Of a stretch of 64,000 nt of DNA, positions 30,145-47,973 are shown one piece after another; the first letter of the stretch is position 1; every line of letters begins with the position of its first letter. The position numbers and the translations under genes were made by a program. The notes beneath the pieces are model-generated. The model did no database searches. It was not told the origin of the DNA and was given only the letters and a program-made list of their open reading frames with translations. Source of the DNA: Ureibacillus acetophenoni (GTDB lineage Bacteria; Bacillota; Bacilli; Bacillales_A; Planococcaceae); the NCBI RefSeq assembly GCF_900220965.1, contig NZ_OBQC01000003.1, positions 124,001 to 188,000 of the forward strand, read 5' to 3'.

Positions 30145-30157
30145 ATTCGCATTTGAA

Positions 30158-30468: not shown

Positions 30469-30489
30469 AACGTTTTCGAATAACTCCTA

Positions 30490-30524
30490 CTGCGCCTCAA
30501 TTGATTTTGAGGTGCAGTTTTTTA
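30490..30524 (+). terminator. Intrinsic terminator
   Basis: CTGCGCCTCAA (30490-30500) pairs with TTGAGGTGCAG (30507-30517), followed by six Ts. Confidence 0.9.
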
Positions 30525-30548
30525 ATCTAAAAAAGAAAGGGGAATTAT

Positions 30549-31442
30549 ATGCCGATTCATTCCTACATTTTGAAATATTTCGATGAACATACTAATGAAA
30601 GAACGGATGGTATTAAGCAAGAAAACCCTCCACAGGAAAGAAGACCAACCATTCATCAAATCGAAGACCAAATTATTAAGTTAAACGGATATCAATTACC
30701 CATTCGAATCTATACCCCAACTCCTCAAGAACATTACTCATTATTAGTATTTTTCCATGAAGGAAGATTTATGAATGGAAATTTAGAGGCATCAGATGTA
30801 GCATGCCGTATGATTGCATCATTTTCTGGACATAAGCTGATTGCAATTGATTATCCAGCTTCTTTAAATAGTGCTGTTGATACTTTTGATAAATGTTACG
30901 AAGCAACGAAGTGGATTTCACAGCAAGCTGACACATTTAATGGCAAGGTATCAGATATATCCATCGCTGGAGGAAGTATTGGGGGAACGATCGCTACGTT
31001 ATTGAGTATTGAAGCAATAAAAAGAAACGATTTTACACTTCAAAAACAAATATTATTTTATCCAATAACTGATTTTAACGAACAAATTGAAGATAGTCAT
31101 TTTCTCTCCAGGAAGATGTACAATGGAAAATATGGAATTGACATCAATAACCTCAAAGGGCTTATGAATTCAAATCTGGAGTCACCTTTAAATGCGGATG
31201 AGAAGATACTTTCAAACATGCCAAATACACTAATCTACACCGCTGAATATGACCCTTTTAGCGATGAAGCTGAAGAATATGCAGAGAAAATACAATCAGC
31301 AGGTGGGGAAGTGAAACTAGTCCGTTTTGATGGAAATATACATGGATTTATGCAAAGTTTCCCTGGATCCCCAGATTATATGAGAGGTTTTGAATTAACA
31401 ACCGAGTTCCTTATTAATGAAGAAAAAGAAGTGCTCACCTAA
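30549..31442 (+). CDS. Alpha/beta-hydrolase, hormone-sensitive-lipase-like esterase
   Basis: This 297-residue alpha/beta-hydrolase-3 protein has nucleophile motif GGSIGG, acid motif AEYDPF and catalytic His in IHGF. The usual HGGG oxyanion motif is altered to HEGRF, which may change or weaken activity. It probably hydrolyses small acyl esters; the substrate is unknown. It is monocistronic, with an AAAGGGG site before the ATG and a terminator overlapping the stop. Confidence 0.85.
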   Translation: MPIHSYILKYFDEHTNERTDGIKQENPPQERRPTIHQIEDQIIKLNGYQLPIRIYTPTPQEHYSLLVFFHEGRFMNGNLEASDVACRMIASFSGHKLIAIDYPASLNSAVDTFDKCYEATKWISQQADTFNGKVSDISIAGGSIGGTIATLLSIEAIKRNDFTLQKQILFYPITDFNEQIEDSHFLSRKMYNGKYGIDINNLKGLMNSNLESPLNADEKILSNMPNTLIYTAEYDPFSDEAEEYAEKIQSAGGEVKLVRFDGNIHGFMQSFPGSPDYMRGFELTTEFLINEEKEVLT

Positions 31443-31470
31443 AAAGGTGAACTTCTTTTTTATTTTTTTT
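31426..31470 (+). terminator. Terminator overlapping the esterase stop codon
   Basis: GAAGTGCTCACC pairs with GGTGAACTTC (about 31428-31456), followed by a long T tract. Confidence 0.8.
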
Positions 31471-31476
31471 TGGGGA

Positions 31477-31492
31477 TAGGAAGGCCTTCCTA
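31477..31492. promoter_or_regulatory. Perfect 16-bp palindrome in the leader of the PAS-GGDEF gene
   Basis: TAGGAAGGCCTTCCTA is followed 18 bases later by GGTGATAT (31511-31518). The same arrangement (TAGGAA-N4-TTCCTA, then GGTGATAT) occurs upstream of the next gene at 34627-34667, so this is probably a shared operator or promoter element. Confidence 0.6.
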
Positions 31493-31621
31493 AGGAAAAT
31501 AAGACATACTGGTGATATCGTTACTTCTGTATTTTGTTAGAATAACTAATACTATTAATTATAGAATTTTTATGCTAATGCTAGATGGAAATACATTTAC
31601 AATATAACATTATTTAACCAG

Positions 31622-31649
31622 TCGAGATATTCGTGTATAAATATCTCGA
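31622..31649. other. Hairpin in the 5' leader of the PAS-GGDEF gene
   Basis: TCGAGATATT (31622-31631) and AATATCTCGA (31640-31649) form a perfect 10-bp stem with an 8-base loop. There is no T run, so it is more likely an RNA element or operator than a terminator. The rest of 31443-31783 is AT-rich with no gene. Confidence 0.45.
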
Positions 31650-31783
31650 AATTTTGATGGAAAAATAAACTTTTTAATATTAAAATTAAGATTTAAAGTA
31701 GTATGAGAATTACTATTAATATATTAATAAGATAGAAGAAGAGTTATTACTACCATTTTCTAATAGAATGGAGGTTTATATAA

Positions 31784-34567
31784 ATGAACCATGACTTAAA
31801 AGAAGATATATCACAATTTGCTAGCATTTTACAAAGTGCTTTCAATACTGTACAAGATATATTTTATATAATGGAAGTTCGTAATGATGAATTCTACTAT
31901 TATTTTGCGAACCAGGTAGGTAGAGGCCATTTAGATTACGAAAAGGAAATGGAAGGAAAAACTTTCTATGAAGTACTTCCTAAAGAAAAAGCAGACTTTC
32001 TAATTAGACAATATAGAAAATGCGTCCGTCAAAAGAAAATTGTAGTCTATAGTGATGAAATAGTAGTAGGTAACCAAAGAATTATTAACGAATCAGTCCT
32101 CACTCCTTTTACTTTTAAAGACAAAATGTTTATAGCAACAGTTGTTCGTGACGTAACGGAGTATAACAGAAAAATTACCGAGTTAAACCATATTAAAAAC
32201 TCACTTGAAATTAATGAAGAAAGATTAAATTCTCTAGTACATAACGATGGAGATGCTATTATTACAGTTGATTCAGAAGGTTATATTTTAGAATCTAATA
32301 ATGCTTGTAAAAAAATCATTGGTTATGATCAGTTAGAAATTGTAGGACTAAATATTTCAAAGTTTTTCCGAAATAATGATTTCGATACCTTAAATAATCA
32401 TTTTAAATTAGCATTAGAAAATCAATCAACACAATTTAATTCCTACGTATTTCATAAAAATGGTTCCTCACTATATGTAAATCTTAAGTTTATTCCTATT
32501 ACGATGAATGGAATAATCCGTGGGGCATATGTAATAGCTAAAGATATTACATATGAAAAAAAGGATTACGAAAATCTGCAGAAATCAGATAGTCAACTTA
32601 AATCGTTTTTAAACCATAATGCTGATCCAATTTATATTACAGATTTAGAGGGTAAAATTGAATTCGTAAATGACTCATTTATTAAAACCTTTGGATTCAA
32701 TAGAGAAGAATTAATTCAACAATTTAACCCAACTATACCCGATTGGTTAAAAGATGAGACAAGCGGATTGTACGAAAAAACGATTAAAGGAAATAGTATC
32801 ACGGATCTTCATGTAATACGACAGAAAAAAAATGGGGAGCTGTTAGAACTAAGTGTGACATTTTCTCCACTTTATGATTCAACTGATGAAATTTCTGGTA
32901 TTGCTAGTATAGCAAGAGATATAACAAATTTTAAAAAAAGAAATTTAGCTTTATATCAAGAAAACCAGGATTTGAATTTAATTTGGAAACATTCTACAGA
33001 TGCTATTTTATTGTTCAATCAAAATGCTGAAATAGTTAAGATTAATCCAACCTTTACTAACTTATTTTTATATAAAAAAGAAGAAATCAATTCACTTTCT
33101 GAACTATATTTAGATCATCAAAAAAATCAAATCCTAGAATTACTACGAATATTAGATGAAGAAAATCCATGCATTCAATTCGAAACAAAACGTAAGCGTA
33201 AAGATGGCTCAGTTATAGATGTACTTGCTACTTATCGAAAAGTTGAAAATGGGAAAACATTTGCGATTGCAACTTATAAAGATATAACAAAAGAAAAGCA
33301 CATACTCCAAGAATTAGCAATAAGCGAAGAAAAATACCGAAAAGTTTTAGACGCTTCGCCAGAGCCATTATTAATTCACAATGGTGAAATTATTACTTAT
33401 CTTAATAAAGCTGCACTCAACTTAGCAAAAGCAAAAAATCTTTGTGTTATGAAAGGTAGACCAATTGCCGATTTTATTCACTCAAGTAATAAAGAGGAAG
33501 TATTAAATCGCATTAAACTTTCAATTAGAAGAGACTTTATATCTGAACCAGTAATTGAAAGGTTCATTACTCTTGATGGTGAATCGATATATGCTGAAAC
33601 TTCAACAGCGGCATTCCAAGAACATGGCCAAGATTACGCCATTGTTATGCTAAGAGATGTGACACAAAAATTAAGAGCTGAAAAATCATTAAAGGAAAGT
33701 GAAGAGCGTTTCCGAATTATTGCTGAAAATACGAATAGTGTAATAAAAATTATAGCTCCAACGGGAAAAGTTACATACTGTTCTCCTTCGATAGAAGATG
33801 TTTTAGGTATACCTATTTGGGATGAGATCGGTAAATCAGTTACAAGTAATATCCATTATGAAGATTTAGAATTATTTGAAATTACAATGGAAGAAAGCTT
33901 AAAAACTAAAAAATCCACTGCTCTCGAAATGCGTTGCATTCATCGAGATGGTTACGCTGTTTGGATTAAAACCCATATCACTCCAATACTTAATGAAAAT
34001 GAAGAAGTAGAAAGAATTATGTTGATTTCCAATGATATTACCGATTTAAAACAAAAGGAAACTACACTTACACAAATGGCGTTTTACGACTATTTAACTA
34101 ATTTACCGAATAGACGATTATTTTATAAACAATTAGAACAAGCAATGTTAACGACCGATAAAACTGGTAAAATCTCAGCTTTAATGATTGTAGATTGCGA
34201 TAAATTCAAATTGATCAATGACACACTAGGACATGATATTGGTGATGAAGTAATTAAAGAATTTGCTAACCGATTGAAATTGTCTCTAAGGCATAAAGAT
34301 ACTATTTCTAGAATTGGCGGGGATGAATTTACTGTCGTAACTCCAGAAATGAAAAGTATTGATGAAGTAATAAGTGTTACAGAACGTTTGTTGAAAAAAA
34401 TGAACGAGCCAATTTATATTTTCGGTCATGAAATTCAACTAACTGCTAGTATTGGCATTGCTATTTACAATTCAAATTCTTATACAATAGAAGAATTATT
34501 CAAAAAAGCAGACCAAAACTTGTATCGTTCAAAAGAATCTGGCGGTAACATATATACACTCGATTAA
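31784..34567 (+). CDS. Cytosolic diguanylate cyclase with about six PAS domains
   Basis: This 927-residue protein has no membrane helix. About six tandem PAS domains (roughly 10-130, 145-262, 270-388, 395-510, 515-632, 640-760) precede a C-terminal GGDEF domain. The active-site motif is intact (RIGGDEF), and RHKD, five residues before it, forms the I-site for product inhibition. It should therefore make c-di-GMP in response to signals sensed by the PAS array. Start is ATG after GGAGG. It leads a run of five signalling genes; an 18-bp stem-loop terminator follows, so it is its own unit, sharing a leader palindrome with the next gene. Confidence 0.92.
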   Translation: MNHDLKEDISQFASILQSAFNTVQDIFYIMEVRNDEFYYYFANQVGRGHLDYEKEMEGKTFYEVLPKEKADFLIRQYRKCVRQKKIVVYSDEIVVGNQRIINESVLTPFTFKDKMFIATVVRDVTEYNRKITELNHIKNSLEINEERLNSLVHNDGDAIITVDSEGYILESNNACKKIIGYDQLEIVGLNISKFFRNNDFDTLNNHFKLALENQSTQFNSYVFHKNGSSLYVNLKFIPITMNGIIRGAYVIAKDITYEKKDYENLQKSDSQLKSFLNHNADPIYITDLEGKIEFVNDSFIKTFGFNREELIQQFNPTIPDWLKDETSGLYEKTIKGNSITDLHVIRQKKNGELLELSVTFSPLYDSTDEISGIASIARDITNFKKRNLALYQENQDLNLIWKHSTDAILLFNQNAEIVKINPTFTNLFLYKKEEINSLSELYLDHQKNQILELLRILDEENPCIQFETKRKRKDGSVIDVLATYRKVENGKTFAIATYKDITKEKHILQELAISEEKYRKVLDASPEPLLIHNGEIITYLNKAALNLAKAKNLCVMKGRPIADFIHSSNKEEVLNRIKLSIRRDFISEPVIERFITLDGESIYAETSTAAFQEHGQDYAIVMLRDVTQKLRAEKSLKESEERFRIIAENTNSVIKIIAPTGKVTYCSPSIEDVLGIPIWDEIGKSVTSNIHYEDLELFEITMEESLKTKKSTALEMRCIHRDGYAVWIKTHITPILNENEEVERIMLISNDITDLKQKETTLTQMAFYDYLTNLPNRRLFYKQLEQAMLTTDKTGKISALMIVDCDKFKLINDTLGHDIGDEVIKEFANRLKLSLRHKDTISRIGGDEFTVVTPEMKSIDEVISVTERLLKKMNEPIYIFGHEIQLTASIGIAIYNSNSYTIEELFKKADQNLYRSKESGGNIYTLD

Positions 34568-34616
34568 AAAAAAGACTAGTAGGAATCAGATGATTCTTAC
34601 TAGTCTTTATTGTTGT
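34566..34616 (+). terminator. Long stem-loop after the PAS-GGDEF gene
   Basis: An 18-bp stem (34571-34588 / 34591-34608; one G-T pair) with a 2-base loop is followed by a broken T tract. Confidence 0.7.
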
Positions 34617-34626
34617 TCTAATTAAA

Positions 34627-34642
34627 TAGGAACCCCTTCCTA
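34627..34642. promoter_or_regulatory. TAGGAA-N4-TTCCTA dyad upstream of the EAL-PilZ gene
   Basis: TAGGAACCCCTTCCTA, followed 17 bases later by GGTGATAT (34660-34667), matches the element at 31477. Confidence 0.6.
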
Positions 34643-34770
34643 GTGAAATAAGAAGTAATGGTGATATATGTTATCAACCTTGCTCTGTAAACTGAGATTA
34701 TCATAAAACTTTCAGAAAATAACATCTGGTACTAGTAATAATCACATTTTTTATAGGGGAGGATAAAAAA

Positions 34771-37746
34771 ATGGTGTTTTCATTATTTCCAAAGTTTCAT
34801 AAAACAGTAGAACCAAAAAGTTATAAGGATAACTTTGATCCTAGCAACAATTTATTGAATAAAAAGATGTTTGACACAATGTTCGAAAGTAGTCCGGATG
34901 CTGTATTTACTATTAGTATAAATAGACAGATACAATTTTTTAATCGAACTCTGAGAATTTTATTTAATAGTAAAGAAGAGAAGCTAAGATTTATCTTCAA
35001 TCAGCAAATATTAAACATTGAAATTGTTAAGGTACATTTAGATCAAGCTTTAAACGGTGAAGCACAATCTTTTCAGTTTGAGTATGTTGATAGAAATAAC
35101 CAGCCAATCAACCTAGATGTTACAATTGTACCTTTATTCAATAATGATTATGAAGTGATCGCAATCTGTGGTATTGCAAAAGATATTACAAATTATGTTT
35201 TATACCACAATGAAATACTTGATGTTAAAAGTAAATTGGAATTAGCTCAAGCAACGGGAAAAATCGGCTCTTGGGACTTAAATATTTTATTAGATGAAAT
35301 CTATTGGTCTGAACAATTTTTTAAGTTAACTGGGCATGAAAAAAATGATACGTTTCGACCGACTTTAGACGAAGGTTTACATTATGTTCATCCTGAAGAT
35401 CGCGAAGATTACCGCAAGGTGTTAAAAGACGCCATTAACAAATCCAAAGGTTACGATATTGAGTATCGTCTTCTTAGAAAAGACAATTCCTTCATCTATG
35501 TTTATGAACATGTAGAAATGTTTTTTGATGAAGTTGGCAATCCAATACGATTAGTAGGAAACACTCAAGATATTACAGAACGAAAGCTCGCAGAAATGAA
35601 ATTAGTAGAATCAAATTTAACTATTGAAACAATCTATGAACATCTATCATTAGGTATAATTTCAATCGACATGGTAAATCAAAGTACGATCATGGTATCG
35701 GCAGGAATTGAAGAGGTAACAGGTTATCCAATAGAATATTTTTATACACCTCAAGGAATTCAATCCATAGTCAATCCTGAGGATCTTCATAAATATATAG
35801 ATGCAATGGCTAAACTGACTTACGGAAAAACGATAACCTTAGAATTTAGAATTGTACACAAAAAAGGTAATCAAATTTGGGTCCATGGTAAATTTTTACC
35901 GATTTTTAATGATATTGGTGCTGTTATTCGTGTTGATGGAATTTTTACGGATATAACAGAACAAAAACAACACCAAGATGAAATTCACCAATTGGCATAT
36001 TATGATAAACTAACTGGTTTAGCAAAAACGGAATTATTTAATGAAAAAATCGAATCATTAATTGAACAAAAAAACCCGTTTTCTATTTTATATTTAGAAG
36101 TTGAACGTCTAAGAACTATTAATAATACACTAGGTCATGCGATCGTAAATGATCTATTAAAAGAAATAACGACTAGAATTCAATCCAATGTGAATCAACC
36201 TTTCTATTTCGCAAGATTAGAAGGAAATGAATTCGGTATTATTCTCTCAGATTATAATCTTTCAAGTTATCCTGAATATTTCGCAGAATCGATCTTAAAA
36301 AGTCTCGAAGTCCCGTTTTTCATTGATGGATTTGAAATCTATGCAACAGCTAGCATTGGTATTAGTAATTATTCCGAAAATGGCGAAACATTAGAAGAAC
36401 TAATAAAAAACGCGGATGCTGCATTACACCGCGCAAAATCTTTAGGCAAAAACAATTATCATATTTTTTCATCCACATTGAACATTTCAACATACAAACA
36501 ATATGAGTTAGAAAGAGATTTAAGAAAAGCATTAAAAAACAATCAATTAATACTATATTTCCAATCAAGAGTAGATACTAAAACACAAAAAATTGTGAGT
36601 GCAGAGGCGCTCATTCGTTGGGAACATCCAATATGGGGGATTGTCTCTCCAGGAGAATTCCTTTCGATCGCAGAAGAAATAGGCTTAATCAATGAAATTG
36701 GTGACTGGGTTTTACAAAAAGTGTGTGATTACTTATCAAAATGGAAAAAAGAGGGTATTAAAATTGTGCCTATTTCTATTAACTTCATTGCTCAACGATT
36801 CTTACGTAGTGATTGTATTCCAATGATCGTTAATACGCTAAAAGAATACGATATAGATTCGTCGCTAATTGAATTAGAGATAACAGAGTCCTCCATTATC
36901 CATCATGAACAAGAAGTGGAACGTATTTTGTTACAGCTAAAAGAACTAGGGATTAAAGTAGCTTTAGATGATTTTGGTACAGGTTATTCCTCATTAGCAC
37001 ATATAAAAGATTTTACGATTAATACGATTAAATTAGATAAATCATTTATTCAACAAATAGCAATTAAACAAGATGTAGAAATCATCATCAAATCTTTAAT
37101 TTTTATGGCTAAAGGGTTAAATATGAATATTGTGGCAGAAGGAGTAGAAACCCTTGAACAATATGAATTTTTGAAGCAACAAGAATGTACAGAAATTCAA
37201 GGATATTTGTTTAGTAAACCAGTTCCAGAGGAGGATTTCAGAAAATTATTGAGTAAAGCAATTCTAAAACCAATTATCCACTCTAAACATTCTGAGATGA
37301 AAGAAAAAAGGAATTTTTATCGAATACAGTTAGTAATGCCATTGAAAGCAACAATGACAATTACATCATTTAAGGGGAATGTTGTTAATTTGGGGAAAAC
37401 AGAGATTACCATTGATAACATTGGTGCTGGTGGTCTAAGGTTCTATTCTACAATTCAGTTACCTGTACGCCCAGATATCGTCTACCAATTTGAAACAGTA
37501 ATAATGGGGAAAGAAGTACAAGTACAGGGTCATATTGTTTGGAAGGATGAATCTTGTGACGGTGTCTATCAATACGGAATATCCTTTAACATTATTGAAA
37601 AAGAACGACAAGATTTATTAAAAGTACTGAATAACTTAACATTAAAACTTAAAAAGAACGTTCTTGTTCATGACACAAATTTTGTACATGATGATCCGAT
37701 TCAATATATAAAAAAAACACAAGTATCAAAATTGAATCTTAAATGA
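34771..37746 (+). CDS. PAS / degenerate GGDEF / EAL / PilZ protein (c-di-GMP phosphodiesterase and receptor)
   Basis: This 991-residue cytosolic protein has three PAS domains (about 30-140, 150-275, 285-400), a degenerate GGDEF domain whose signature reads LEGNEF with no I-site (about 405-575), and a full EAL domain (about 590-835). A C-terminal PilZ-like domain follows (about 855-970; RNFYRIQL, NIGAGGLRF). EAL residues are all present: EALIRW, EITES, LDDFGTGYSS, IKLDK, AEGVET, IQGYL. It should degrade c-di-GMP, with the inactive GGDEF as a possible GTP-sensing regulator and PilZ as its own c-di-GMP sensor. It is paired with the upstream cyclase. Confidence 0.92.
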   Translation: MVFSLFPKFHKTVEPKSYKDNFDPSNNLLNKKMFDTMFESSPDAVFTISINRQIQFFNRTLRILFNSKEEKLRFIFNQQILNIEIVKVHLDQALNGEAQSFQFEYVDRNNQPINLDVTIVPLFNNDYEVIAICGIAKDITNYVLYHNEILDVKSKLELAQATGKIGSWDLNILLDEIYWSEQFFKLTGHEKNDTFRPTLDEGLHYVHPEDREDYRKVLKDAINKSKGYDIEYRLLRKDNSFIYVYEHVEMFFDEVGNPIRLVGNTQDITERKLAEMKLVESNLTIETIYEHLSLGIISIDMVNQSTIMVSAGIEEVTGYPIEYFYTPQGIQSIVNPEDLHKYIDAMAKLTYGKTITLEFRIVHKKGNQIWVHGKFLPIFNDIGAVIRVDGIFTDITEQKQHQDEIHQLAYYDKLTGLAKTELFNEKIESLIEQKNPFSILYLEVERLRTINNTLGHAIVNDLLKEITTRIQSNVNQPFYFARLEGNEFGIILSDYNLSSYPEYFAESILKSLEVPFFIDGFEIYATASIGISNYSENGETLEELIKNADAALHRAKSLGKNNYHIFSSTLNISTYKQYELERDLRKALKNNQLILYFQSRVDTKTQKIVSAEALIRWEHPIWGIVSPGEFLSIAEEIGLINEIGDWVLQKVCDYLSKWKKEGIKIVPISINFIAQRFLRSDCIPMIVNTLKEYDIDSSLIELEITESSIIHHEQEVERILLQLKELGIKVALDDFGTGYSSLAHIKDFTINTIKLDKSFIQQIAIKQDVEIIIKSLIFMAKGLNMNIVAEGVETLEQYEFLKQQECTEIQGYLFSKPVPEEDFRKLLSKAILKPIIHSKHSEMKEKRNFYRIQLVMPLKATMTITSFKGNVVNLGKTEITIDNIGAGGLRFYSTIQLPVRPDIVYQFETVIMGKEVQVQGHIVWKDESCDGVYQYGISFNIIEKERQDLLKVLNNLTLKLKKNVLVHDTNFVHDDPIQYIKKTQVSKLNLK

Positions 37747-37873
37747 AAACACTTTTAGTTGTAGTATAAAAATTACCATCAAGAAATAGTTCACTTATAC
37801 TCCTTACAAATTTGAAAGTATGATATCCTAGTAAAATAGAAGGATTATCTATTTAAGTTGGGGAGTAGTGAGG

Positions 37874-39931
37874 ATGGAAAACGAAAAAATTAATATTTTA
37901 CTAGTAGATGATCGGCCCGAAAACTTATTAACTTTAGAAGCGATACTTGATCATGATGATTATCATTTAATTAAAGTTCAATCAGGTGAGGACGCACTAA
38001 AATATTTATTAAAGCATGATGTTGCTTTAATATTATTAGATGTGCAAATGCCTGGATTGGATGGTTATAGTACAGCCAAAATTATAAAAGCACGAGAAAA
38101 AACAAAACATGTTCCGATTCTATTTATTACAGCAAATTACTTAGATTCAGAACATGTTTTTATGGGTTATACTGTTGGTGCAATAGACTATATCCTCAAG
38201 CCTTTTGACCCAATTATTTTAGCTTCTAAGGTTGAAAGATTTGTTGAATTATATAAATTGAGAAAACAACTCGAACATCAAACTAACACGTTAATTGAAA
38301 AAAATAATGTTATCCAATATTTAGCTAATCATGATAGTTTAACGGAATTACCAAACCGTAGATATTTTTATGAATTATTAATTGCACAAGTAAATGAAGC
38401 AAAATTAAAAAATGAAACTTTTAGTGTAATGATATTGGATTTAGATCGATTTAAATATGTAAATGATTCACTTGGACATGTGATTGGCGATAATTTACTA
38501 ATTGAAGTAGCAAAACGATTATATTCTTCGACGCGAGCTGAAGATTTTATAGCACGTGTTGGTGGTGATGAGTTTTACATCATTTTGCCAAACTCAGATA
38601 GAGATCAATCCATTAAACTAGCTGAGAATATTTTAGATTCATTTAAAAATCCATTTTTAATAGATAAATATGAATTTTACATCACTTCATGTATTGGATT
38701 AGCAATTTTCCCTTATGATGCCGAAGATTCAAATTCATTAATTCAAAAAGCAGATGCCGCTCTTTACAGGGCAAAAGAGCAGGGGAAAAACAAATATAAT
38801 GTTTTTCATTCCGGTATGAATATTCAATCTTACCGTTCTTTTCTTTTACAAAATGATTTGCGTAAAGCAATCGATAATAATGAATTTTTCTTAGTCTATC
38901 AGCCTAAAGTGAATATTCATTCGGGCCAAGTTAAAAGTGCTGAAGCTTTACTACGATGGAAACACCCTGTTTGGGGATTAATTCCGCCAAATGAATTTAT
39001 TCCTTTAGCTGAAGAATCAGGGCTCATTTTCGAGATTGATCAATGGGTATTTAAAAATGTTTGTAAACAAATTCAGACTTGGAATAATAATCAGGTTGAA
39101 TATATAAGAATTGCTGTAAATTTATCAGCAAAACATTTCGTTGAAAAAAACTTCATACAAAATATTATACAAGTAATTGATGAATTTCAGATTGAGACAA
39201 TGCAACTTGAGTTTGAGATTACTGAAACTGCTTTATTAGCAAATGAAGAATCTATAAAACAGACATTAAAACAAATAAAAGAATTAGGAATTCACATAAG
39301 TCTTGATGATTATGGTACAGGGTATTCATCTATTATCTATCTAAGAAACTTCCCATTGGATTCCATTAAAATCGATCAATCCTATATCAATGATTTACCA
39401 AACAACATGAATAATAGTGTAGAAATAGTAGAATCTATCATTAATTTAGCGAAAAAACTTAATATCACAGTTATCGCTGAAGGAGTAGAAACGGTCGAGC
39501 AACTTGAGATTTTAAATGAACTTCAATGTAAAGAGGTTCAGGGATATATCTATAGTCCACCTATATCTTCTGAAAACTTAGTTGAATATGTACAAAATGA
39601 TGATTCGAAAATTCTTACTAAAATAAACGATCCAAAACCACTATCAATCGAACAAAAGAATAAAATTAAACCATTTGAAAGTGGAACGAACAGTCATGTA
39701 CTTCAAAACGCTATAAGCGAACTGAAAGGTACTTACTCACTTTCTAGTCGAGAATTAGATGTTTTGACACTAATTGTTGAAGGTCTTACAAACAAAGAAA
39801 TCTCCGAACGTCTATTTATTAGTGAACATACTGTAAAAAACCATATTACAAACATACTTCATAAATTCGATGCTACAGATCGTGTACAAGTAATTTCAAG
39901 AGTGTATGAAGCATGCATTAATGTAGTATAA
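37874..39931 (+). CDS. Response regulator REC-GGDEF-EAL-LuxR HTH fusion
   Basis: This 685-residue protein carries a receiver domain (about 4-125; phospho-Asp in LILLDVQMPG, Lys in ILKPFD), GGDEF (about 145-310; RVGGDEF intact with I-site RAED) and EAL (about 320-560; EALLRW, EITET, LDDYGTGYSS, IKID, AEGVET, VQGY). A C-terminal LuxR-type helix-turn-helix completes it (about 620-685; SSRELDVLTLIVEGLTNKEI, EHTVKNHI). Both catalytic domains look competent. Ending a REC-GGDEF-EAL protein in a DNA-binding domain is unusual and suggests direct coupling of phosphorylation, c-di-GMP and transcription. Start ATG 37874 is 8 bases after GGGGAG. The histidine kinase gene follows by 36 bases. Confidence 0.92.
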   Translation: MENEKINILLVDDRPENLLTLEAILDHDDYHLIKVQSGEDALKYLLKHDVALILLDVQMPGLDGYSTAKIIKAREKTKHVPILFITANYLDSEHVFMGYTVGAIDYILKPFDPIILASKVERFVELYKLRKQLEHQTNTLIEKNNVIQYLANHDSLTELPNRRYFYELLIAQVNEAKLKNETFSVMILDLDRFKYVNDSLGHVIGDNLLIEVAKRLYSSTRAEDFIARVGGDEFYIILPNSDRDQSIKLAENILDSFKNPFLIDKYEFYITSCIGLAIFPYDAEDSNSLIQKADAALYRAKEQGKNKYNVFHSGMNIQSYRSFLLQNDLRKAIDNNEFFLVYQPKVNIHSGQVKSAEALLRWKHPVWGLIPPNEFIPLAEESGLIFEIDQWVFKNVCKQIQTWNNNQVEYIRIAVNLSAKHFVEKNFIQNIIQVIDEFQIETMQLEFEITETALLANEESIKQTLKQIKELGIHISLDDYGTGYSSIIYLRNFPLDSIKIDQSYINDLPNNMNNSVEIVESIINLAKKLNITVIAEGVETVEQLEILNELQCKEVQGYIYSPPISSENLVEYVQNDDSKILTKINDPKPLSIEQKNKIKPFESGTNSHVLQNAISELKGTYSLSSRELDVLTLIVEGLTNKEISERLFISEHTVKNHITNILHKFDATDRVQVISRVYEACINVV

Positions 39932-39967
39932 ACTAAGATAAATTGTAGACTTCATTGGAGTGAAAAT

Positions 39968-42900
39968 ATGAAACTTAAAACTAAATTCTTAATATCATTG
40001 AGTGTTTTACCTTTATTATTGATTGCAATCATTATATTAGGATTTATCCAACATAATCAGCTTAATCGAATAAGTAATACAGTGAATCATAATGCTGATT
40101 TAACTTTAACAGCGCAGCAAATTAGAGCAGATCTAAAAGATGCGAGCATACTTCTTCGAGATTTAGTCATTACAGAAGATCAAGAAAATATTAAACTGTT
40201 AACTGAACAATCAAAAGCAGAATTAGCAAATATCTCACAAGGGATTAAAGATTTAGAAACAAAAACATCTAATCTTCAAGAGAACAATTTAATTGAGAGG
40301 TTATATTCTATTAATTCCGAATTTGTTCTTTATGCAAACGAGGTATTATCTTACGTTGAGGAAGGTAACAACGAAACTGCAGCTAGAATTATTGAGGAAA
40401 ACGCAGGAAATACTAGAGCACTTTTTACACAGGCCGTTCGTGAAATAACAAATGAATATGATACACACTTACAAAATACTCTGGTAACGTCTATTGACAG
40501 TTTTGAAAAGGGCACTGTTATTTCATTAATAATTTTAGGAACTGGAATTATCCTTATCATTGTTACGACAGGGAGCACGATCATACATGCCGTACAAAGA
40601 CTAGGTAAGATGTCATCTTTAATGACAAGCATCACTAATGGTGAACAAGACTTAAACACGAAAGTTCCAGTATTAAATAATGACGAAATTGATACTGTTG
40701 CCATTTCCTTTAATAAATTATCTGATTCTCTGTCAGAACAAATGGTTAAAGAACAACAGCTTACATGGATGAAAACAAATATAGCTGACATTACAACAAG
40801 CTTAAGTGGATCGGGCGAATTAGAATCTTTAGGAAGTACGTTATTATCAAGAGTAGTGCCATTAGTTGAATCGAGCCACGCAGTATTATATGTTCAAGAT
40901 TTAAATAATAACGGACAAAGCTATAAGTTAATTTCTACATATGGTACTCAAAAAGATAGCAAACAGCTATTTTCAATAATCCATCCCGGTGAAGGGTTAA
41001 TTGGACAATCAATTGTTGAAAAAAGTCCGATTATCTTAACAGATATACCAAAAGACTATATTAAAATTTCATCTGGTATAGGTGAAACTTCACCAACAAA
41101 CGTTTATATTTTTCCGATAATTTTCGAAAATGAAGTAAAGGCTGTTTTAGAGCTTGCTTCACTTAAACCATTTACTGAAATTCAAACGAACTTTTTACAA
41201 GAGTTGATTCAAAATATCGGAATTGTAATCGAAAGTGTTATGAGCCGAATTCAATTAGCTCAATTACTAGAAGAGTCTCAAACATTAATGGAAGAAATTC
41301 AAGCACAATCTGAAGAATTACAAAACCAACAAGAAGAGTTAAAAGCAACAAATGAAGAGTTGGAAGCTCAAACATTAATTCTCCGACAGTCTGAAGAAAA
41401 ACTTCAAAGACAACAAGAAGAATTAGAAGAAACAAATACAGAATTAGAAGAAAAAGCGAAACGTTTAGAAGAACAAAATATTAAATTCGAAGAGACAAAT
41501 AGACAAGTAGAAAATGCAAAGGCTGAACTTGAGATAAAAGCAGAACAATTAGCCCTAAGCTCTAAATATAAATCTGAATTCTTAGCGAATATGTCTCATG
41601 AATTACGTACTCCTTTAAATAGTCTAATTATTTTATCGAAATTATTAGCTGATAATCCAAATCAAAACCTTACAACGAAACAGATTGAATTCGCTAAGAC
41701 AATACATTCTTCAGGAAATGATCTATTAAAACTGATTAATAATATTTTAGATTTAGCTAAAATTGAGTCTGGTAAAACTGAAGTGATTCCAACAAACTTG
41801 AACATTTCATCCATTGTCGAATCACTTCAATATAGCTTTAGACCATTAGCTGAAAGTAAAAACTTATCATTTGACGTAGTCGTTCAAGCAGGAACACCAA
41901 AAACTCTTTTTAGTGATATTGACCGAATTCAACAAATACTTAATAATTTACTATCGAATGCTTACAAGTTCACTAAAAAAGGTGGAGTAAAGCTTGAGAT
42001 ATCATATGATAATGTTCAAAAACAATTTGCTTTCTCAGTAGTTGACACAGGTATTGGAATACCTCTAGAAAAACAACAATTAATCTTTGAGGCATTCCAA
42101 CAAGCTGACGGTACAACAAGTCGAAAGTTTGGCGGAACAGGATTAGGGTTATCTATTTCAAAAGAACTAGCTACTATCTTAGGTGGAGAAATAGTTGTTG
42201 AAAGTGAAGAAGGGAAGGGAAGTCGATTTACTTTCTTCGTAAGTAACTATAACAATGTTCAACAAACTATTAATTCAATACATGAAGTAGCAGCCACAGC
42301 GGAAATAAACACAACACCTATAGAAATCGATCAAAAACCAGTCCTTAACACTGTCAAGGACAATAAAGTATCAGTCAATAATCAAATTAAACGGCTATTA
42401 ATTATTGATGATGATTTAAATCAAAGAAATAGTTTAATGGAATTAATCGGGAATATGGATTTTATCATAAGTGCAGTTCCTTCTGGTCATCAGGCAATTG
42501 AATTGTTAAAAGTAAATCATTTTGATTGCATTATTTTAGATTTAGGATTGGGAGATACTAACGGATTCGAATTATTGAAAAGAATCAAGGATATCGATAT
42601 TCAAAGTGAGTTAAAAGTTATTGTCTACACAGGACGACATTTAATAAGTAAAGAAGAACTTTATATAGGGAAATTTACACATACAATCATTATCAAAAAC
42701 GAATATTCTCCAGAACGATTAAAAAGTGAACTTGAACTATTTTTAATTGAAAGTAAAAATAAACATAATTCAATCTCACAAAACGACAACTATTCTAGTG
42801 ACAATTCAAATCTTTCTGGTAAAAAAATCTTATTAGTAGATGATGATGTACGAAATGTATTCTCACTCACTAGCGTATTAGAAATGACTGGATGTGAAGT

Positions 42901-43183
42901 TCTATTTGCAGAAAATGGTTTAGAGAGCTTAAAAATGTTAGATGAAAACGATGATATCGACCTTGTATTAATGGACATTATGATGCCGGAAATGGATGGT
43001 TATGAAGCAATCCAACATATAAGAGAGAAATCACAGTTTAAAGATTTACCAATCATAGCTTTAACAGCAAAAGCCATGAAAGAAGACCGCGAAAAATGTT
43101 TAATGATCGGTGCTTCTGATTATATTGCAAAACCAGTAGAGCCAGATCAACTAATTTCTTTAATTAAAGTTTGGGTATATTAG
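39968..43183 (+). CDS. Membrane hybrid sensor histidine kinase (HAMP-GAF-HisKA-HATPase-REC-REC)
   Basis: This 1071-residue kinase has TM1 (about 8-28), an extracellular helical sensor (about 29-185), TM2 (about 187-210), HAMP, GAF (about 275-430), and a long Glu/Gln-rich coiled coil (about 430-540). Then come HisKA (phospho-His in NMSHELRTPLNSL), HATPase (NNLLSNAYKF, DTGIGI, GGTGLGLSI) and two receivers: REC1 about 810-925 (ILDLGLG) and REC2 about 945-1070 (LVLMDIMMPEMDG). It probably phosphorylates the adjacent REC-GGDEF-EAL-LuxR regulator, directly or through its own receivers. The CheR gene follows by 19 bases. The layout recalls kinases linked to CheB/CheR-type stress modules. Confidence 0.93.
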   Translation: MKLKTKFLISLSVLPLLLIAIIILGFIQHNQLNRISNTVNHNADLTLTAQQIRADLKDASILLRDLVITEDQENIKLLTEQSKAELANISQGIKDLETKTSNLQENNLIERLYSINSEFVLYANEVLSYVEEGNNETAARIIEENAGNTRALFTQAVREITNEYDTHLQNTLVTSIDSFEKGTVISLIILGTGIILIIVTTGSTIIHAVQRLGKMSSLMTSITNGEQDLNTKVPVLNNDEIDTVAISFNKLSDSLSEQMVKEQQLTWMKTNIADITTSLSGSGELESLGSTLLSRVVPLVESSHAVLYVQDLNNNGQSYKLISTYGTQKDSKQLFSIIHPGEGLIGQSIVEKSPIILTDIPKDYIKISSGIGETSPTNVYIFPIIFENEVKAVLELASLKPFTEIQTNFLQELIQNIGIVIESVMSRIQLAQLLEESQTLMEEIQAQSEELQNQQEELKATNEELEAQTLILRQSEEKLQRQQEELEETNTELEEKAKRLEEQNIKFEETNRQVENAKAELEIKAEQLALSSKYKSEFLANMSHELRTPLNSLIILSKLLADNPNQNLTTKQIEFAKTIHSSGNDLLKLINNILDLAKIESGKTEVIPTNLNISSIVESLQYSFRPLAESKNLSFDVVVQAGTPKTLFSDIDRIQQILNNLLSNAYKFTKKGGVKLEISYDNVQKQFAFSVVDTGIGIPLEKQQLIFEAFQQADGTTSRKFGGTGLGLSISKELATILGGEIVVESEEGKGSRFTFFVSNYNNVQQTINSIHEVAATAEINTTPIEIDQKPVLNTVKDNKVSVNNQIKRLLIIDDDLNQRNSLMELIGNMDFIISAVPSGHQAIELLKVNHFDCIILDLGLGDTNGFELLKRIKDIDIQSELKVIVYTGRHLISKEELYIGKFTHTIIIKNEYSPERLKSELELFLIESKNKHNSISQNDNYSSDNSNLSGKKILLVDDDVRNVFSLTSVLEMTGCEVLFAENGLESLKMLDENDDIDLVLMDIMMPEMDGYEAIQHIREKSQFKDLPIIALTAKAMKEDREKCLMIGASDYIAKPVEPDQLISLIKVWVY

Positions 43184-43202
43184 TATTTAAGGAATGAAAT
43201 AT

Positions 43203-44054
43203 ATGGAATTAAACACTATTGATAAGCATGAATCCTTTGATGAATTAGAAAAACTGGAAATAAAATTGTTAGTGAACGGTCTTTATGAATGGTGTGGCTA
43301 TGATTTTCGTGATTATGCATTTCCATCGCTTCGAAGACGTATTTTGCACCGTCTACAAGCAGAAAAACTTTCAACAATTACCCAATTATTGAACAAGGCA
43401 CTGCATGAAGCTGACTGTTTAAACCGGTTACTTGATGATCTATCAATTAATGTGACAGAGATGTTTCGAGATCCGTTGTTTTGGAAAGAATTCCGAGAGA
43501 AAATCGTACCATACTTACGTACTTACCCTTCTATACGTATTTGGCTTGCAGGGTGTGCTTCTGGTGAGGAAGTCTATTCAATGGCCATACTTTTAGAAGA
43601 AGAAGGACTTTATGAGAAAACAAAAATTTACGCTACAGATTTTAATCAAGAAGTATTAAAAGTAGCTAAGAACGGTTATTACCCTTTAGAAAAAATGAAA
43701 AAGTATACACAAAACTACTTACAATCTGGTGGGGAAAATGAGTTCTCCCATTATTACAAAGTTACTAATTCTGGGGTTAAATTTGATTCTACATTAATGA
43801 GAAATGTCATTTTTGCTCAACATAATTTAGCAACAGACCGATCATTTAATGAGTTTCAAGTGATTTTATGTCGTAATGTGATGATTTACTTTAACAAGAC
43901 ACTACAACAAAAAGTTCATGGATTGTTTTTTGAAAGCTTAAATTCGTTCGGTTTTCTTGGACTAGGAGATAAAGAAACTATTAGTTTTACAGAGTATGAA
44001 GATCACTACGATATAATTAGTGCAAAACAAAAAATATACCAAAAAAATAAATAG
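43203..44054 (+). CDS. CheR-type protein-glutamate methyltransferase
   Basis: This 283-residue CheR-family enzyme has the SAM-binding motif IWLAGCASGEEVYSMA and ILCRNVMIYFN. It could methylate the chemoreceptor at 49981 or, more likely from its position, a signalling component of this cluster such as the kinase sensor region. Neither is shown. Start ATG 43203 is 9 bases after AAGGA; the ATG at 43194 abuts that box. No CheB partner is adjacent. It closes the REC-DGC/kinase operon, with a terminator following. Confidence 0.9.
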   Translation: MELNTIDKHESFDELEKLEIKLLVNGLYEWCGYDFRDYAFPSLRRRILHRLQAEKLSTITQLLNKALHEADCLNRLLDDLSINVTEMFRDPLFWKEFREKIVPYLRTYPSIRIWLAGCASGEEVYSMAILLEEEGLYEKTKIYATDFNQEVLKVAKNGYYPLEKMKKYTQNYLQSGGENEFSHYYKVTNSGVKFDSTLMRNVIFAQHNLATDRSFNEFQVILCRNVMIYFNKTLQQKVHGLFFESLNSFGFLGLGDKETISFTEYEDHYDIISAKQKIYQKNK

Positions 44055-44064
44055 ATATAATTTT

Positions 44065-44097
44065 TAAACACCACCTAATTTTAGGTGGTGTTTTTTA
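44065..44097 (+). terminator. Intrinsic terminator of the signalling operon
   Basis: AACACCACCTAA (44067-44078) pairs with TTAGGTGGTGTT (44081-44092), followed by Ts. Confidence 0.9.
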
Positions 44098-44130
44098 CGT
44101 GATTTTTGTTAGTAGTACCTATTGTTTACT

Positions 44131-44160
44131 TGAATAGATAACATTTCAAATGTCAATTAT
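44131..44160 (+). promoter_or_regulatory. Sigma-G-like forespore promoter of the ger operon
   Basis: TGAATA (44131-44136) and CAATTAT (44154-44160) are 17 bases apart, resembling sigma-G sites (TGAATA / CATACTA). Forespore expression is known for gerA operons. Confidence 0.5.
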
Positions 44161-44189
44161 ATAGTTAACAGTGGAAACGGGGAGTTGTC

Positions 44190-45743
44190 ATGTTTAACAA
44201 AAAGAAGAAAAATAATAAAGAACAAATAACAAATGAACAGACTGAAATGCAAGAGCCAACTAAGCACTATTCTAAAAATGAATTAAAACAAACTTTAGAA
44301 ATATTATCAAAAGAAGAATTCATTAATTTAATTAAAGAGAAAATTAATAGTCCATCTGATTTTATTATAAAGAATGTAACTGATGAAATTACAATCGTTT
44401 ATATAGATAATCTAATAGAAGTTAAATCATTAACTGATCTAACTATTCCAACGTTACAAAATATTTCAGACCCAACACCTCAAACAATTAAAGAAAAATT
44501 ACCACTTGCTCAAATTGATATTTCGAATAAATTAGACATTTTGATTTATGAATTACTTGAGGGTGCTGCGTTAATCCATACTAAAGAAAATGCAGAAATT
44601 ATCATTGCCAAAATCTCTTCCTATCAATCAAGAGGTTTATCTGCACCTGAAAATGAATCTCAAGTTATAGGTTCGCAAGTAGGATTTAATGAAAGTTTAG
44701 CGACAAACATTTCACTTATTCGACGTTTTGTTACGAGCCCTAATTTATGTAACGAAAAGTTTGAAGTCGGAGAAGATACAATCACTTCTATTTCACTCAT
44801 ATACATAAAGGGTGTTGCTTCTGAAGAACAAGTGAATACAATTCGACAAAGAATTGAGAGTTTAGACGTATCTGGATTAATTGACAGCGCTATATTAGCT
44901 GAATTAATAGATGATAGTTCAAAAACAGTTTTTCCGCAAATGTTGCTAACTGAAAGACCTGATCGATTTTGCGACGGATTATTATCTGGGAAAATTGGCA
45001 TTATGATGAATGGTAGTTCAATGGGAATCGTGACACCCGTTGCATTTATAGAGTTTTTCCATAGTAAAGAAGATCAAAATTTACGTTGGCAAATTGGCAC
45101 GATGTTAAGGTTATTAAGACTCTTTGCGATGATTTTCTCTATTTTTTTAACACCTATTTATGTAGCTGCTTTAACATATCACTATGAAATAATTTCACAA
45201 ACACTTATAGTTCCTTTAAGTGAAAGTAGAGCAATTGTACCATTTCCACCTATATTAGAGGCTCTATTGCTGGAACTTATTATCGAATTACTAAGAGAAG
45301 CAGGTTCACGTTTACCTACAAAAGTTGGACAAACTGTCGGGATTGTTGGAGGTATCGTAATCGGTACAGCTGCAGTTGAAGCTGGGATCACAAGTAATAT
45401 TTTAATAATCTTTGTTGCATTAAGTGCTCTAGCTTCATTTACTACTCCTAATTATGTAATGGCTAACATCATACGTTTCTTAAGATTTCCAATTATTATT
45501 TTAGCAGGAATTTGGGGATTTTTAGGCATCATGCTTGCTGTATGCTTTTTACTAATTCACCTATTAAGATTAACTAGTTTAGGAGCTCCTTATCTTGCCC
45601 CTTTATATCCAACAAGACTAAAGGATTTACCTAACAGCTTAATCAGACTCCCTTTGTCTATTATAAGTCGACAAGCTGTTAACACAAGAAAAGGCGATGA
45701 GGAATCTACAAAACAAAAGGACAGTAAGAAGGTGAGTGAATGA
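44190..45743 (+). CDS. gerAA: Spore germinant receptor subunit A (GerA family)
   Basis: This 517-residue GerAA-type protein has a long hydrophilic N-terminal domain (about 1-290) containing the family motif around GFNESLATNISLIRR and LTERPDRFCDGLLSGKIGI. About five membrane helices (about 300-490) and a charged tail follow. It forms the inner-membrane germinant receptor with the B and C subunits. The stop overlaps the next start by 4 bases. The symbol denotes the family; the germinant is unknown. Confidence 0.93.
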   Translation: MFNKKKKNNKEQITNEQTEMQEPTKHYSKNELKQTLEILSKEEFINLIKEKINSPSDFIIKNVTDEITIVYIDNLIEVKSLTDLTIPTLQNISDPTPQTIKEKLPLAQIDISNKLDILIYELLEGAALIHTKENAEIIIAKISSYQSRGLSAPENESQVIGSQVGFNESLATNISLIRRFVTSPNLCNEKFEVGEDTITSISLIYIKGVASEEQVNTIRQRIESLDVSGLIDSAILAELIDDSSKTVFPQMLLTERPDRFCDGLLSGKIGIMMNGSSMGIVTPVAFIEFFHSKEDQNLRWQIGTMLRLLRLFAMIFSIFLTPIYVAALTYHYEIISQTLIVPLSESRAIVPFPPILEALLLELIIELLREAGSRLPTKVGQTVGIVGGIVIGTAAVEAGITSNILIIFVALSALASFTTPNYVMANIIRFLRFPIIILAGIWGFLGIMLAVCFLLIHLLRLTSLGAPYLAPLYPTRLKDLPNSLIRLPLSIISRQAVNTRKGDEESTKQKDSKKVSE

Positions 45744-46855
45744 AACAAGCTACACAATCCAAACAGTACGAAAAGATTAATGCGTTTTTAATATTTTTTG
45801 TAATTGTTAGCTGTCAAATCGGAGTAGGTATTCATGGTTTTCAACGAGTAATTTATGAAGAAGCAAAACAAGATGCTTGGATATCAGTTGTATTGAGTTT
45901 CATTCTTGCGCATATTGTTGTTTTTATTATGTTTAAAACATTAGAGAAGTTTGACGGCCTTGATATTTATGGAATACAGAAGGAAGTTTTCGGTAAAATT
46001 CTTGGTAAATTTTTAAACCTATTATATGTAATTTATTGTACTTTTGCATTTTTTGCAGTTTTAAAAAACTATATCGAAGTAGTAAATACATGGGTATTTC
46101 CATATGTAAATGCTCGTTTTATAGCGATTGCTATACTGCTCATTGTAATATACGCTGTTACCGGAGGATTAAGAGTTATTGTTGGAATCAGTTTTTTTAG
46201 TTTCTTTTTCTTATTATGGATTCCACCTGTATTAATTTTTCCCTTATATTACTCAAACCCTAATTTTCTTTTGCCGATCATGGAGGATTGGGCTGGAATT
46301 TTAAGAGGGGTATATTTAATGAGTTTTACAATTGTTGGATTTGAAATTTTGAATATAATATATCCATATATAAAAGAAAAAGAAAGAAAAAATGCCAATA
46401 AATACGCTCAGATTGGATTATTAGCTACCTTTTTTTTATACATCACAATTATGTTAATTACAATAATGTACTTTAGTGGTCCTCAATTAGAAAGAGTTAT
46501 TTGGGCAACATTAACGATATTTAATATAATTGAATTTCCCTTTGTTGAGAGAATTGAAATTATTACGATATGTTTATGGCTGCTGATTGTTTTACCGAAT
46601 CTCTGCTTATATTTATGGGCTGCATATCGTGGAGTGTCTTCCATATTCAAAATAGAGCTTAAAAAATTTATTTGGATATTCGCAAGTATCATCTTTATTT
46701 TTACTTTTATTATAAGGTCAAGAACTGAAATCAACACTATGAATAATTACTTTGGACAAATTTCATTTTATGTTGTATTTGTCTATCCATTTTTGTTATA
46801 TTTATTTGCTTCCATAAAAAAAAGACGAAGAAAAGGGACAGGTGACTCATCATGA
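45740..46855 (+). CDS. gerAB: Spore germinant receptor subunit B (GerAB-type permease)
   Basis: This 371-residue APC-like permease has about ten membrane helices and belongs to the endospore germination permease family (QIGVGIHGFQRVIYEEAKQD near the N terminus). The B subunit binds the germinant in this receptor class. ATGA overlap with gerAA upstream and gerAC downstream shows tight translational coupling. It ends in a basic KKRRRKG tail. Confidence 0.92.
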   Translation: MKQATQSKQYEKINAFLIFFVIVSCQIGVGIHGFQRVIYEEAKQDAWISVVLSFILAHIVVFIMFKTLEKFDGLDIYGIQKEVFGKILGKFLNLLYVIYCTFAFFAVLKNYIEVVNTWVFPYVNARFIAIAILLIVIYAVTGGLRVIVGISFFSFFFLLWIPPVLIFPLYYSNPNFLLPIMEDWAGILRGVYLMSFTIVGFEILNIIYPYIKEKERKNANKYAQIGLLATFFLYITIMLITIMYFSGPQLERVIWATLTIFNIIEFPFVERIEIITICLWLLIVLPNLCLYLWAAYRGVSSIFKIELKKFIWIFASIIFIFTFIIRSRTEINTMNNYFGQISFYVVFVYPFLLYLFASIKKRRRKGTGDSS

Positions 46856-47973
46856 TCAAACGACAAGTCCTTTTATATTATTTATGTATATCCCTCTTGC
46901 TCTTCGGTTGTGCTGATCCTAAAATTCTTGAAAGAGTTAGTCTAGCTATTCTAGTCGGTTATGATGTTGAAGAAGAAGATAAAGTAACAGCAACAGTTGC
47001 GCTTAGAACCGTCAATCAGGAATTACAAAGTGTTGTAAGTATTGCATCACAAACAGAGAAAACTAGTAAAGGAACCCGAATTAAAGCAAGTCTTGATAGT
47101 ACAAAACAAATAGTGGCTGGACAGCTCCGTGTAATACTGTTAGGAAAAAAACTTGCTGAATCGGGAATAAATGAGGCTCTTCATACAACAAAGATGAATT
47201 CAGAAATGAGCAGTGGACTTTACTTTGCTATAGTAGATGGAGAGACAAAACCATTAATAGAAAAAAAATACGAAAACATCTCAGACATTGGTCAACATAT
47301 TTTTTATTTGTTGGATCATAATATCGAAGAACAAACAATCCTATCCTCTACTTTACACGAAACTGTCCGTGATAGTTATTCACCCTACATTGATATGGCA
47401 TTACCATTACTCGTTCAAGATGAGGATGATGTTCATATAAGTGGTCTTGCGATTTTTAATGGTGATAAAATGGTCGGAAAACTAGTTGGAAGTGACCCAT
47501 TTTACGTCGTATTAGTACGAGAAAAATATAATGCAGGGTCCATTCAACTATCAATACCAGGTGAACCGTTTAAAAATTTATCCGATGAAATACCAGATGA
47601 AATAGCGATGGCTATTGATTCAATTTTTTCAAAAAGAAAGATCGAATTACTAAATAAAGATACTCCTGAATTTGAAATAGATGTAAAAGTCGAAGGACGT
47701 ATACTTGAAATTCCTCCAAGTATTACTACAGAAGATCCTGAAGTAATAAAAAAATTAGAAACAGAAGTGGAAAAAAAATTTGAGAGAGAAATATCCCGTA
47801 TTATTAAGAAAACTCAAGAGTTAAATTCGGATGTGTTTGGCTTTGGAGAAGTTTATAAAGCGCACGTTGGTACTAAAAACGTTGATAAAAAGAAGTGGAA
47901 AGAACTATATCCTACAATCAAAGTTAATGCAAATGTAACAGTTAAATTGTTACGTAATGGCGTCTTTGACTAA
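46852..47973 (+). CDS. gerAC: Spore germinant receptor lipoprotein subunit C (Ger(x)C)
   Basis: This 373-residue lipoprotein has signal ICISLLLFGC (lipidated Cys about residue 21) followed by the three-part GerAC fold: ERVSLAILVGYD near the start, LRVILLGKKLAESG, and a C-terminal domain rich in Glu/Lys helix. It completes the ABC germinant receptor. It overlaps gerAB by 4 bases, and a terminator follows. Confidence 0.92.
   Translation: MIKRQVLLYYLCISLLLFGCADPKILERVSLAILVGYDVEEEDKVTATVALRTVNQELQSVVSIASQTEKTSKGTRIKASLDSTKQIVAGQLRVILLGKKLAESGINEALHTTKMNSEMSSGLYFAIVDGETKPLIEKKYENISDIGQHIFYLLDHNIEEQTILSSTLHETVRDSYSPYIDMALPLLVQDEDDVHISGLAIFNGDKMVGKLVGSDPFYVVLVREKYNAGSIQLSIPGEPFKNLSDEIPDEIAMAIDSIFSKRKIELLNKDTPEFEIDVKVEGRILEIPPSITTEDPEVIKKLETEVEKKFEREISRIIKKTQELNSDVFGFGEVYKAHVGTKNVDKKKWKELYPTIKVNANVTVKLLRNGVFD

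Follow-up and report, generated by a model that had tools for sequence, protein, structure and literature searches.

The described systems that come closest to the locus reported here, all of them drawn from excerpts of the papers cited, are VieA of Vibrio cholerae, in which a phosphodiesterase domain lies between a receiver and a helix-turn-helix (REC-PDE-HTH; PMC4352251), PdeL (YahA) of Escherichia coli, in which a LuxR-type HTH is joined to an active EAL domain (PMC5052742), and the RsbK-RsbM pair of Bacillus cereus, where the CheR-type protein RsbM methylates the signalling helix of RsbK and the REC-PP2C protein RsbY is the output (PMC4574943). In the excerpts concerned, the phosphodiesterase of VieA is reported to be independent of phosphorylation and both VieA and BsmR are said to act through c-di-GMP (PMC5498567), while for PdeL, regarded as a trigger phosphodiesterase, a feedback of c-di-GMP on DNA binding has been proposed (PMC5052742). 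Among the open-licence papers searched, none names a REC-GGDEF-EAL-HTH architecture. The typical NarL/LuxR-type response regulator consists of REC and HTH only and is about 220 aa long, regulators of the VieA type are not known to have a GGDEF domain in their chain, and RsbK-like kinases were reportedly surveyed in a paper of 2012. The presence of a c-di-GMP enzyme in a DNA-binding response regulator, set against the usual architectures in a first-pass annotation of this DNA, is preceded by VieA and PdeL as these are described in the excerpts (PMC4352251; PMC5052742). Compared with the known systems, RGEH, the protein described below, is new in having a GGDEF domain where VieA has only its phosphodiesterase, partner genes of the RsbK/RsbM type, and a candidate operator.

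In the window, that is, the whole stretch of 64,000 nucleotides of Ureibacillus acetophenoni DNA that was analysed, the protein named RGEH (Table 1) carries four domains, all scoring far above the Pfam cut-offs, and the first-pass description of a REC-GGDEF-EAL protein with a C-terminal LuxR HTH and intact motifs holds good. The receiver has D12, D13, D56, T86 and K109; the GGDEF motif is intact (D189, D191) and accompanied by an RxxD I-site (R221, D224); the EAL domain has the full catalytic set of a trigger phosphodiesterase, with 11 of 11 residues (Q343, E357, N416, E448, E451, D478, D479, K499, E536, E539, Q556), the roles of these residues being those described for PleD and RocR. The open reading frame list starts the frame with a GTG at 37868; relative to GGGGAG, however, the spacing favours the ATG at 37874.

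Table 1. Features of the RGEH locus, in window coordinates
Feature	Position	Strand	Basis or remark
Element copy 1, upstream of the PAS-GGDEF gene	31477..31518	+	
PAS(x5)-GGDEF protein, likely diguanylate cyclase, candidate target	31784..34567	+	Pfam
Element copy 2, upstream of the PAS-GGDEF-EAL-PilZ gene	34627..34667	+	
PAS-GGDEF-EAL-PilZ protein, candidate target	34771..37746	+	Pfam
Conserved RGEH promoter, TACTCCT-N16-TGATATCCT, extended -10, no -35	37798..37829	+	
REC-GGDEF-EAL-HTH protein, RGEH	37874..39931	+	685 aa, one open frame
Receiver domain REC, aa 8-120, phospho-acceptor D56	37895..38233	+	Pfam PF00072, 81 bits
GGDEF domain, aa 151-307, I-site R221/D224	38324..38794	+	Pfam PF00990, 163 bits
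EAL domain, aa 327-563, full catalytic set	38852..39562	+	Pfam PF00563, 267 bits
LuxR/GerE helix-turn-helix, aa 622-675	39737..39898	+	Pfam PF00196, 73 bits
Hybrid histidine kinase, 4HB-HAMP-GAF-(E/Q-rich helix)-HisKA-HATPase-REC-REC, presumed RGEH partner	39968..43183	+	Pfam
CheR-type methyltransferase, RsbM-like by position	43194..44054	+	Pfam

RGEH shares with NarL/LuxR-type regulators the N-terminal REC with its acceptor Asp and the C-terminal GerE/LuxR HTH, and departs from their two-domain build by its 685 aa, with GGDEF and EAL in between. Like VieA as described in excerpt (REC-EAL-HTH, with the kinase VieS), it has a c-di-GMP phosphodiesterase domain between REC and a C-terminal HTH; unlike VieA, it has a GGDEF domain (151-307) ahead of the EAL, a kinase with two RECs in which Pfam finds no Hpt match, a CheR gene behind the kinase, and an origin in Bacillales. 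A LuxR-type HTH and an EAL domain in one chain are also found in PdeL, according to the excerpt of its source, whereas in PdeL the HTH is N-terminal and both REC and GGDEF are absent. The closest solved structure to the EAL region is the GGDEF-EAL unit of MorA (PDB sequence search), and the GGDEF-EAL unit as a whole best matches chains of MorA, PA0575 and DosP (PDB searches by sequence and by fold, among the matches listed); the tandem enzymes MorA, PA0575 and PA0861 are its best matches by sequence and fold together among the matches listed, the solved chains having, unlike RGEH, neither REC nor HTH. The RGEH HTH matches NarL-family DNA-binding domains in the PDB, and a full-length counterpart is absent among the 50 listed matches of the fold search, which gave GGDEF-EAL matches. 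In an AlphaFold2 model built on a 21-sequence alignment (mean pLDDT 78.6), a single helix (113-152) joins REC to GGDEF and a disordered linker is predicted at 577-605, ahead of the HTH; given a pTM of 0.50, the relative arrangement of the domains cannot be taken from the model.

The distribution of RGEH is patchy. Within the genus, 16 of the 25 genomes, that of the window included, have full-length relatives (58-78% identity), one of them (G001) in two copies. In the family, 20 of 261 genomes match, belonging to 2 of 19 genera (E up to 1e-150); in the second genus, represented by four genomes, a PAS domain lies between REC and GGDEF (Pfam on two of the four). In a sample of the class, 4 of 398 genomes match RGEH (E up to 1e-130), the match reaching the HTH in 2. 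A locus scan, neither complete nor a census, was made with the EAL-to-HTH part as query and ISEHTVKN and DR[VA][QH].. as seeds, the best 80 of 382 matches being retained; REC, GGDEF, EAL and HTH follow one another in one frame and in the same order in 57 of the 79 loci so obtained (26 short and 31 long forms), which come from 18 genera named in the record titles, including Ureibacillus, Lysinibacillus, Bacillus, Neobacillus, Oceanobacillus, Sporosarcina, Paenibacillus and Cohnella. The rarity for which the first-pass annotation proposed a search is thus real, though RGEH is not a single case: the architecture is an uncommon yet conserved family and no chance fusion. On a quick tree no fewer than 4-5 changes are required to account for the 690-aa form and the 840-aa form, which bears PAS, and this suggests that PAS was gained or lost repeatedly.

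The two genes behind RGEH recur with it. Among the 57 RGEH loci (from the best 80 of 382 matches), a homologue of the kinase follows RGEH in 56 and both kinase and CheR follow in 54, the exceptions being two loci that end at a contig end (L069, L082) and one with neither gene (L092). The kinase residues H544, D858 and D1003 are kept in 55 of 55 homologues, and an E/Q-rich helix is conserved ahead of HisKA. The pair resembles RsbK-RsbM, as far as the excerpt of its source describes it, in that a CheR-type methyltransferase adjoins a hybrid kinase in which GAF, a signalling helix and HisKA/HATPase are followed by REC at the C-terminus; it differs in the sensor part (4HB_MCP instead of CHASE3), in its two RECs and in the output, which is REC-GGDEF-EAL-HTH in the window and, again per excerpt, a REC-PP2C protein acting on sigma B in the case of RsbY. 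In the class sample the kinase matches 9 of 398 genomes (E up to 1e-150), namely the window's, G438, which also has RGEH, and seven that all belong to a single other family; in the four of these seven that were fetched, the kinase has a REC-PP2C (RsbY-like) gene immediately in front of it and CheR immediately behind. Since REC-PP2C here occupies the slot of RGEH beside a homologous kinase and CheR, the slot appears to hold the output regulator, and the sensing unit to serve different outputs. In the window's own genome neither a REC-PP2C protein as a single frame nor a second kinase carrying the full sensor part was found. We strongly infer that RGEH, the hybrid kinase and CheR form a module of three genes with RGEH as its response regulator, the kinase very probably pairing with RGEH. 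Distance correlations among RGEH, kinase and CheR (r 0.66, 0.66 and 0.75) were dropped as evidence of pairing, co-evolution estimated in this way being too unspecific. In the REC-PP2C version of the module (L158-L161), CheR is followed by a REC-HisKA-HATPase-REC protein (Pfam in L158 only), and one locus (L036, G001 contig C10) has two RGEH genes a few kb apart, each with its own hybrid kinase behind it. After CheR in the window (44190-46855) lie two genes that by eye resemble germinant-receptor A and B subunits, a pair kept behind CheR in several congeners.

RGEH has a conserved promoter of its own. The extended -10, T[AG]TGNTA[TA]N[CA]T, is found at the same place in 36 of 61 RGEH upstream regions (61 of the 63 members, two with D12 not aligned being left out) against 5 of 1580 random windows, in 27 of 30 short and 9 of 31 long forms, and by a simple rule a TCCC-like box stands at the -35 position in 23 of 38 (shuffles: mean 2.4, maximum 8; kinship uncontrolled). 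The exact motif, TACTCCY-N16-TGNTATNCT, occurs once in the genome; as a regulon motif it was rejected, since with up to 2 mismatches it has 47 matches, fewer than the 59 of the reversed control. The promoter motif is distinct from the element described below, with the exception of three loci (L073, L076, L084) in which a core match lies before RGEH, so that, outside these three, a simple self-activation of the PdeL kind is not suggested; PdeL activates its own gene, whereas the candidate sites of RGEH are mostly at neighbouring genes. Complementarity between the promoter box and the ribosome-binding region (37798-37870) is slightly higher within a species than across species (5 of 5000 permuted pairs, 30 of 5000 minus five near-copies; kinship uncontrolled); a pairing of the two was considered and not adopted.

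The promoters at 31477 and 34627, which the first-pass annotation had associated with RGEH, proved to be the exact starts of two copies of an element that occupies the same place in relatives. Both read TAGGAA-N4-TTCCTA-N3/4-AAATRAGA-N6-GGTGATAY (also written TAGGAA-N4-TTCCTA-N3/4-AAATRAGA-N6-GGTGATAT) and lie immediately upstream of a -10; in the genome, the strict and core forms of the element are found only at these two positions. In the protein behind the second copy, the GGDEF motif is degenerate (EGNEF) and the EAL residues are intact; in two loci (L031, L032) its place is taken by a short EAL-bearing relative of about 277 aa. Over 20 elements, the left arm, which was outside the search pattern, completes a perfect 6-bp dyad in 14, and a -10-like TANNNT follows at offset 20-22 with 16 counts, 11 of them at one offset. 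A SigD-like promoter, whose form is TAAA-N15-GCCGATAT, was rejected as an identity for the element: by eye no TAAA is conserved at that spacing, and TANNNT lies downstream.

The co-occurrence of element and protein suggests that the HTH of RGEH probably binds this element. An alternative is that some other regulator binds the element, or that the element constitutes a separate type of promoter, and that RGEH is merely clustered with it and regulates something else. The strict form leaves this alternative some room: it has 19 matches in 14 of 25 congeneric genomes (reversed control, 0), distributed as 14 of 16 congeners with RGEH against 0 of 9 without, with 17 of the 19 beside RGEH and the other two (G004, G005) before a Spo0E-like gene, and since it was built from congeneric loci beside RGEH it is partly circular, only its absence elsewhere being informative, a comparison limited in turn by the fact that RGEH-free genomes may lack the whole gene cluster. 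In the same direction point a congener without RGEH (G013) that has the core element before a Spo0E-like gene, and several RGEH loci without the element: with the core pattern, AATAAGA-N6-GGTGATA with one mismatch allowed, it was not found in 22 of 45 RGEH loci outside the genus (best 80 of 382 matches), and it is missing in the Sporosarcina loci L081 and L088. Against it stands the intergenic presence of the core element in the other 23 of these 45 loci, where 100 shuffled motifs give 0.08 on average and never more than 1; the frame that comes first after the core mostly encodes a GGDEF or EAL protein, and the genes that the element precedes near RGEH in other genera (GGDEF, EAL and PAS-only proteins) are non-homologous. 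The element also accompanies a second kind of protein that shares the HTH helix of RGEH, the core occurring in 5 of 22 RGEH-free loci (best 80 of 382 matches; shuffled mean 0.06, maximum 3). These 22 loci were drawn by the same HTH seed words as the RGEH loci, and proteins of five of the 22 were scanned for domains, all five having a C-terminal GerE HTH preceded by GAF-type or PocR domains; that HTH and element are both shared would fit binding. Across the 261 family genomes, moreover, the core element is present in 14 of 20 with RGEH against only 7 of 241 without, although EAL matches occur in 215 of the 261; its occurrences total 30, those of the reversed control 15. On this evidence the alternative is the less likely of the two. 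The PocR/GAF proteins of the RGEH-free loci (L103-L127, for example L107:2665-4794) are about 700 aa long with the same C-terminal LuxR-type HTH, and their genes often adjoin a GGDEF-EAL gene. Among the seven HTH domains of the window's genome that are nearest to that of RGEH and were aligned, none has ISEHTVKNHIT.

Away from RGEH, the core element lies about 100 nt before Spo0E-like genes (Pfam) in five congeners (G003, G004, G005, G012, G013; loci L211, L212, L223, L229, L230), and in single congeners before a PAS protein (G022), at 464 nt before a 4HB-HAMP receptor-like protein (G007) and at 354 nt before an ArsR-type gene (G023). Distal non-coding matches occur in 7 of 16 congeners with RGEH and 1 of 9 without, a difference that is not significant (p 0.18).

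It has also to be considered that the HTH only dimerises or anchors the protein, RGEH working simply as a c-di-GMP phosphodiesterase under the control of phosphorylation, in the way proposed for VieA as an enzyme. The action of VieA and BsmR through c-di-GMP, cited above from an excerpt, and the completeness of the 11-residue EAL set in 55 of 63 family members agree with this. The conservation of the chain makes it improbable, however: within the genus (21 orthologues) the HTH, at 77% mean identity, is the second most conserved domain after REC (86%; 81% between the two genera), ahead of GGDEF (65%), EAL (60%) and the linker before the HTH (23%), and the recognition helix is invariant in these 21 orthologues, which were found by a whole-protein search. 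Its identity in 63 of 63 members (S650-H657) is partly by construction, ISEHTVKN having been a scan seed. Conservation of REC and HTH above the enzymes within the genus fits a regulator whose phosphorylation and DNA binding matter. REC residues and the ten tabulated EAL residues are kept in 21 of 21 orthologues, while D189 is replaced by N in 4 and the I-site Arg is missing in 3; among the 63 members, D12/D13/D56/K109 are complete in 60, D189 with GGDEF in 50 and the RxxD I-site in 53, the full EAL set being absent in 8 and the full cyclase motif in 13. REC and HTH are thus the best kept by sequence, and the phosphodiesterase is retained more widely than the cyclase, a pattern from which net phosphodiesterase activity would be expected. 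More improbable still is that the TAGGAA-N4-TTCCTA dyad is a hairpin of a structured leader RNA, the element being a riboswitch and not a DNA operator, for although the dyad would form a stem and the element precedes c-di-GMP genes, the -10-like TANNNT at a fixed place downstream should leave it outside the transcript, and Rfam gave no match at this place that reached or approached the gathering score of its family (four sub-threshold, chance-like matches over 28000-47000).

The reading that we prefer, with a probability of roughly 0.55, is that RGEH is a phosphorylation-gated activator with a built-in phosphodiesterase, in short "VieA plus GGDEF". Points that speak against it, besides those raised above on the element, are the phosphorylation-independent phosphodiesterase reported for VieA (PMC5498567), the members with an incomplete EAL set (8 of 63) or cyclase motif (13 of 63), and the different motif at the RGEH promoter. 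Methylation of the E/Q-rich signalling helix by CheR would tune the membrane kinase, as RsbM tunes RsbK; the kinase would phosphorylate D56 of the RGEH receiver, and phosphorylated RGEH would dimerise via the long REC-GGDEF helix (113-152), bringing two HTH domains together. The HTH would then activate promoters with the element just upstream of the -10, the targets in the window's genome being presumably the two neighbouring c-di-GMP genes, while the GGDEF-EAL unit would read and remove c-di-GMP, mainly as a phosphodiesterase, with the GGDEF domain acting as a cyclase or as a GTP-sensing partner. By analogy with the trigger phosphodiesterase PdeL, c-di-GMP might also feed back on DNA binding by RGEH; such tuning is conceivable, at somewhat less than even odds.

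More tentatively, the locus may represent a self-contained switch of Bacillales, in which an RsbK/RsbM-type pair drives the regulator, phosphorylation and c-di-GMP jointly gate one dedicated operator, and the genes under this operator are the adjacent c-di-GMP genes together with, in part of the relatives, Spo0E-like, chemoreceptor and PAS genes, so that c-di-GMP would be linked to the decision to sporulate. If the preferred reading is true, a c-di-GMP circuit would have its input (REC), its two enzymes and its output (HTH) united in one chain, and with a predicted operator a few kb from RGEH the coupling of phosphorylation, messenger and transcription would become testable with purified parts. 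The RsbK-RsbM sensing unit would then be modular, serving either a sigma-factor phosphatase or a c-di-GMP transcription factor, and the distal sites, where they lie ahead of Spo0E-like genes, point to a possible connection of c-di-GMP with sporulation that could be tested.
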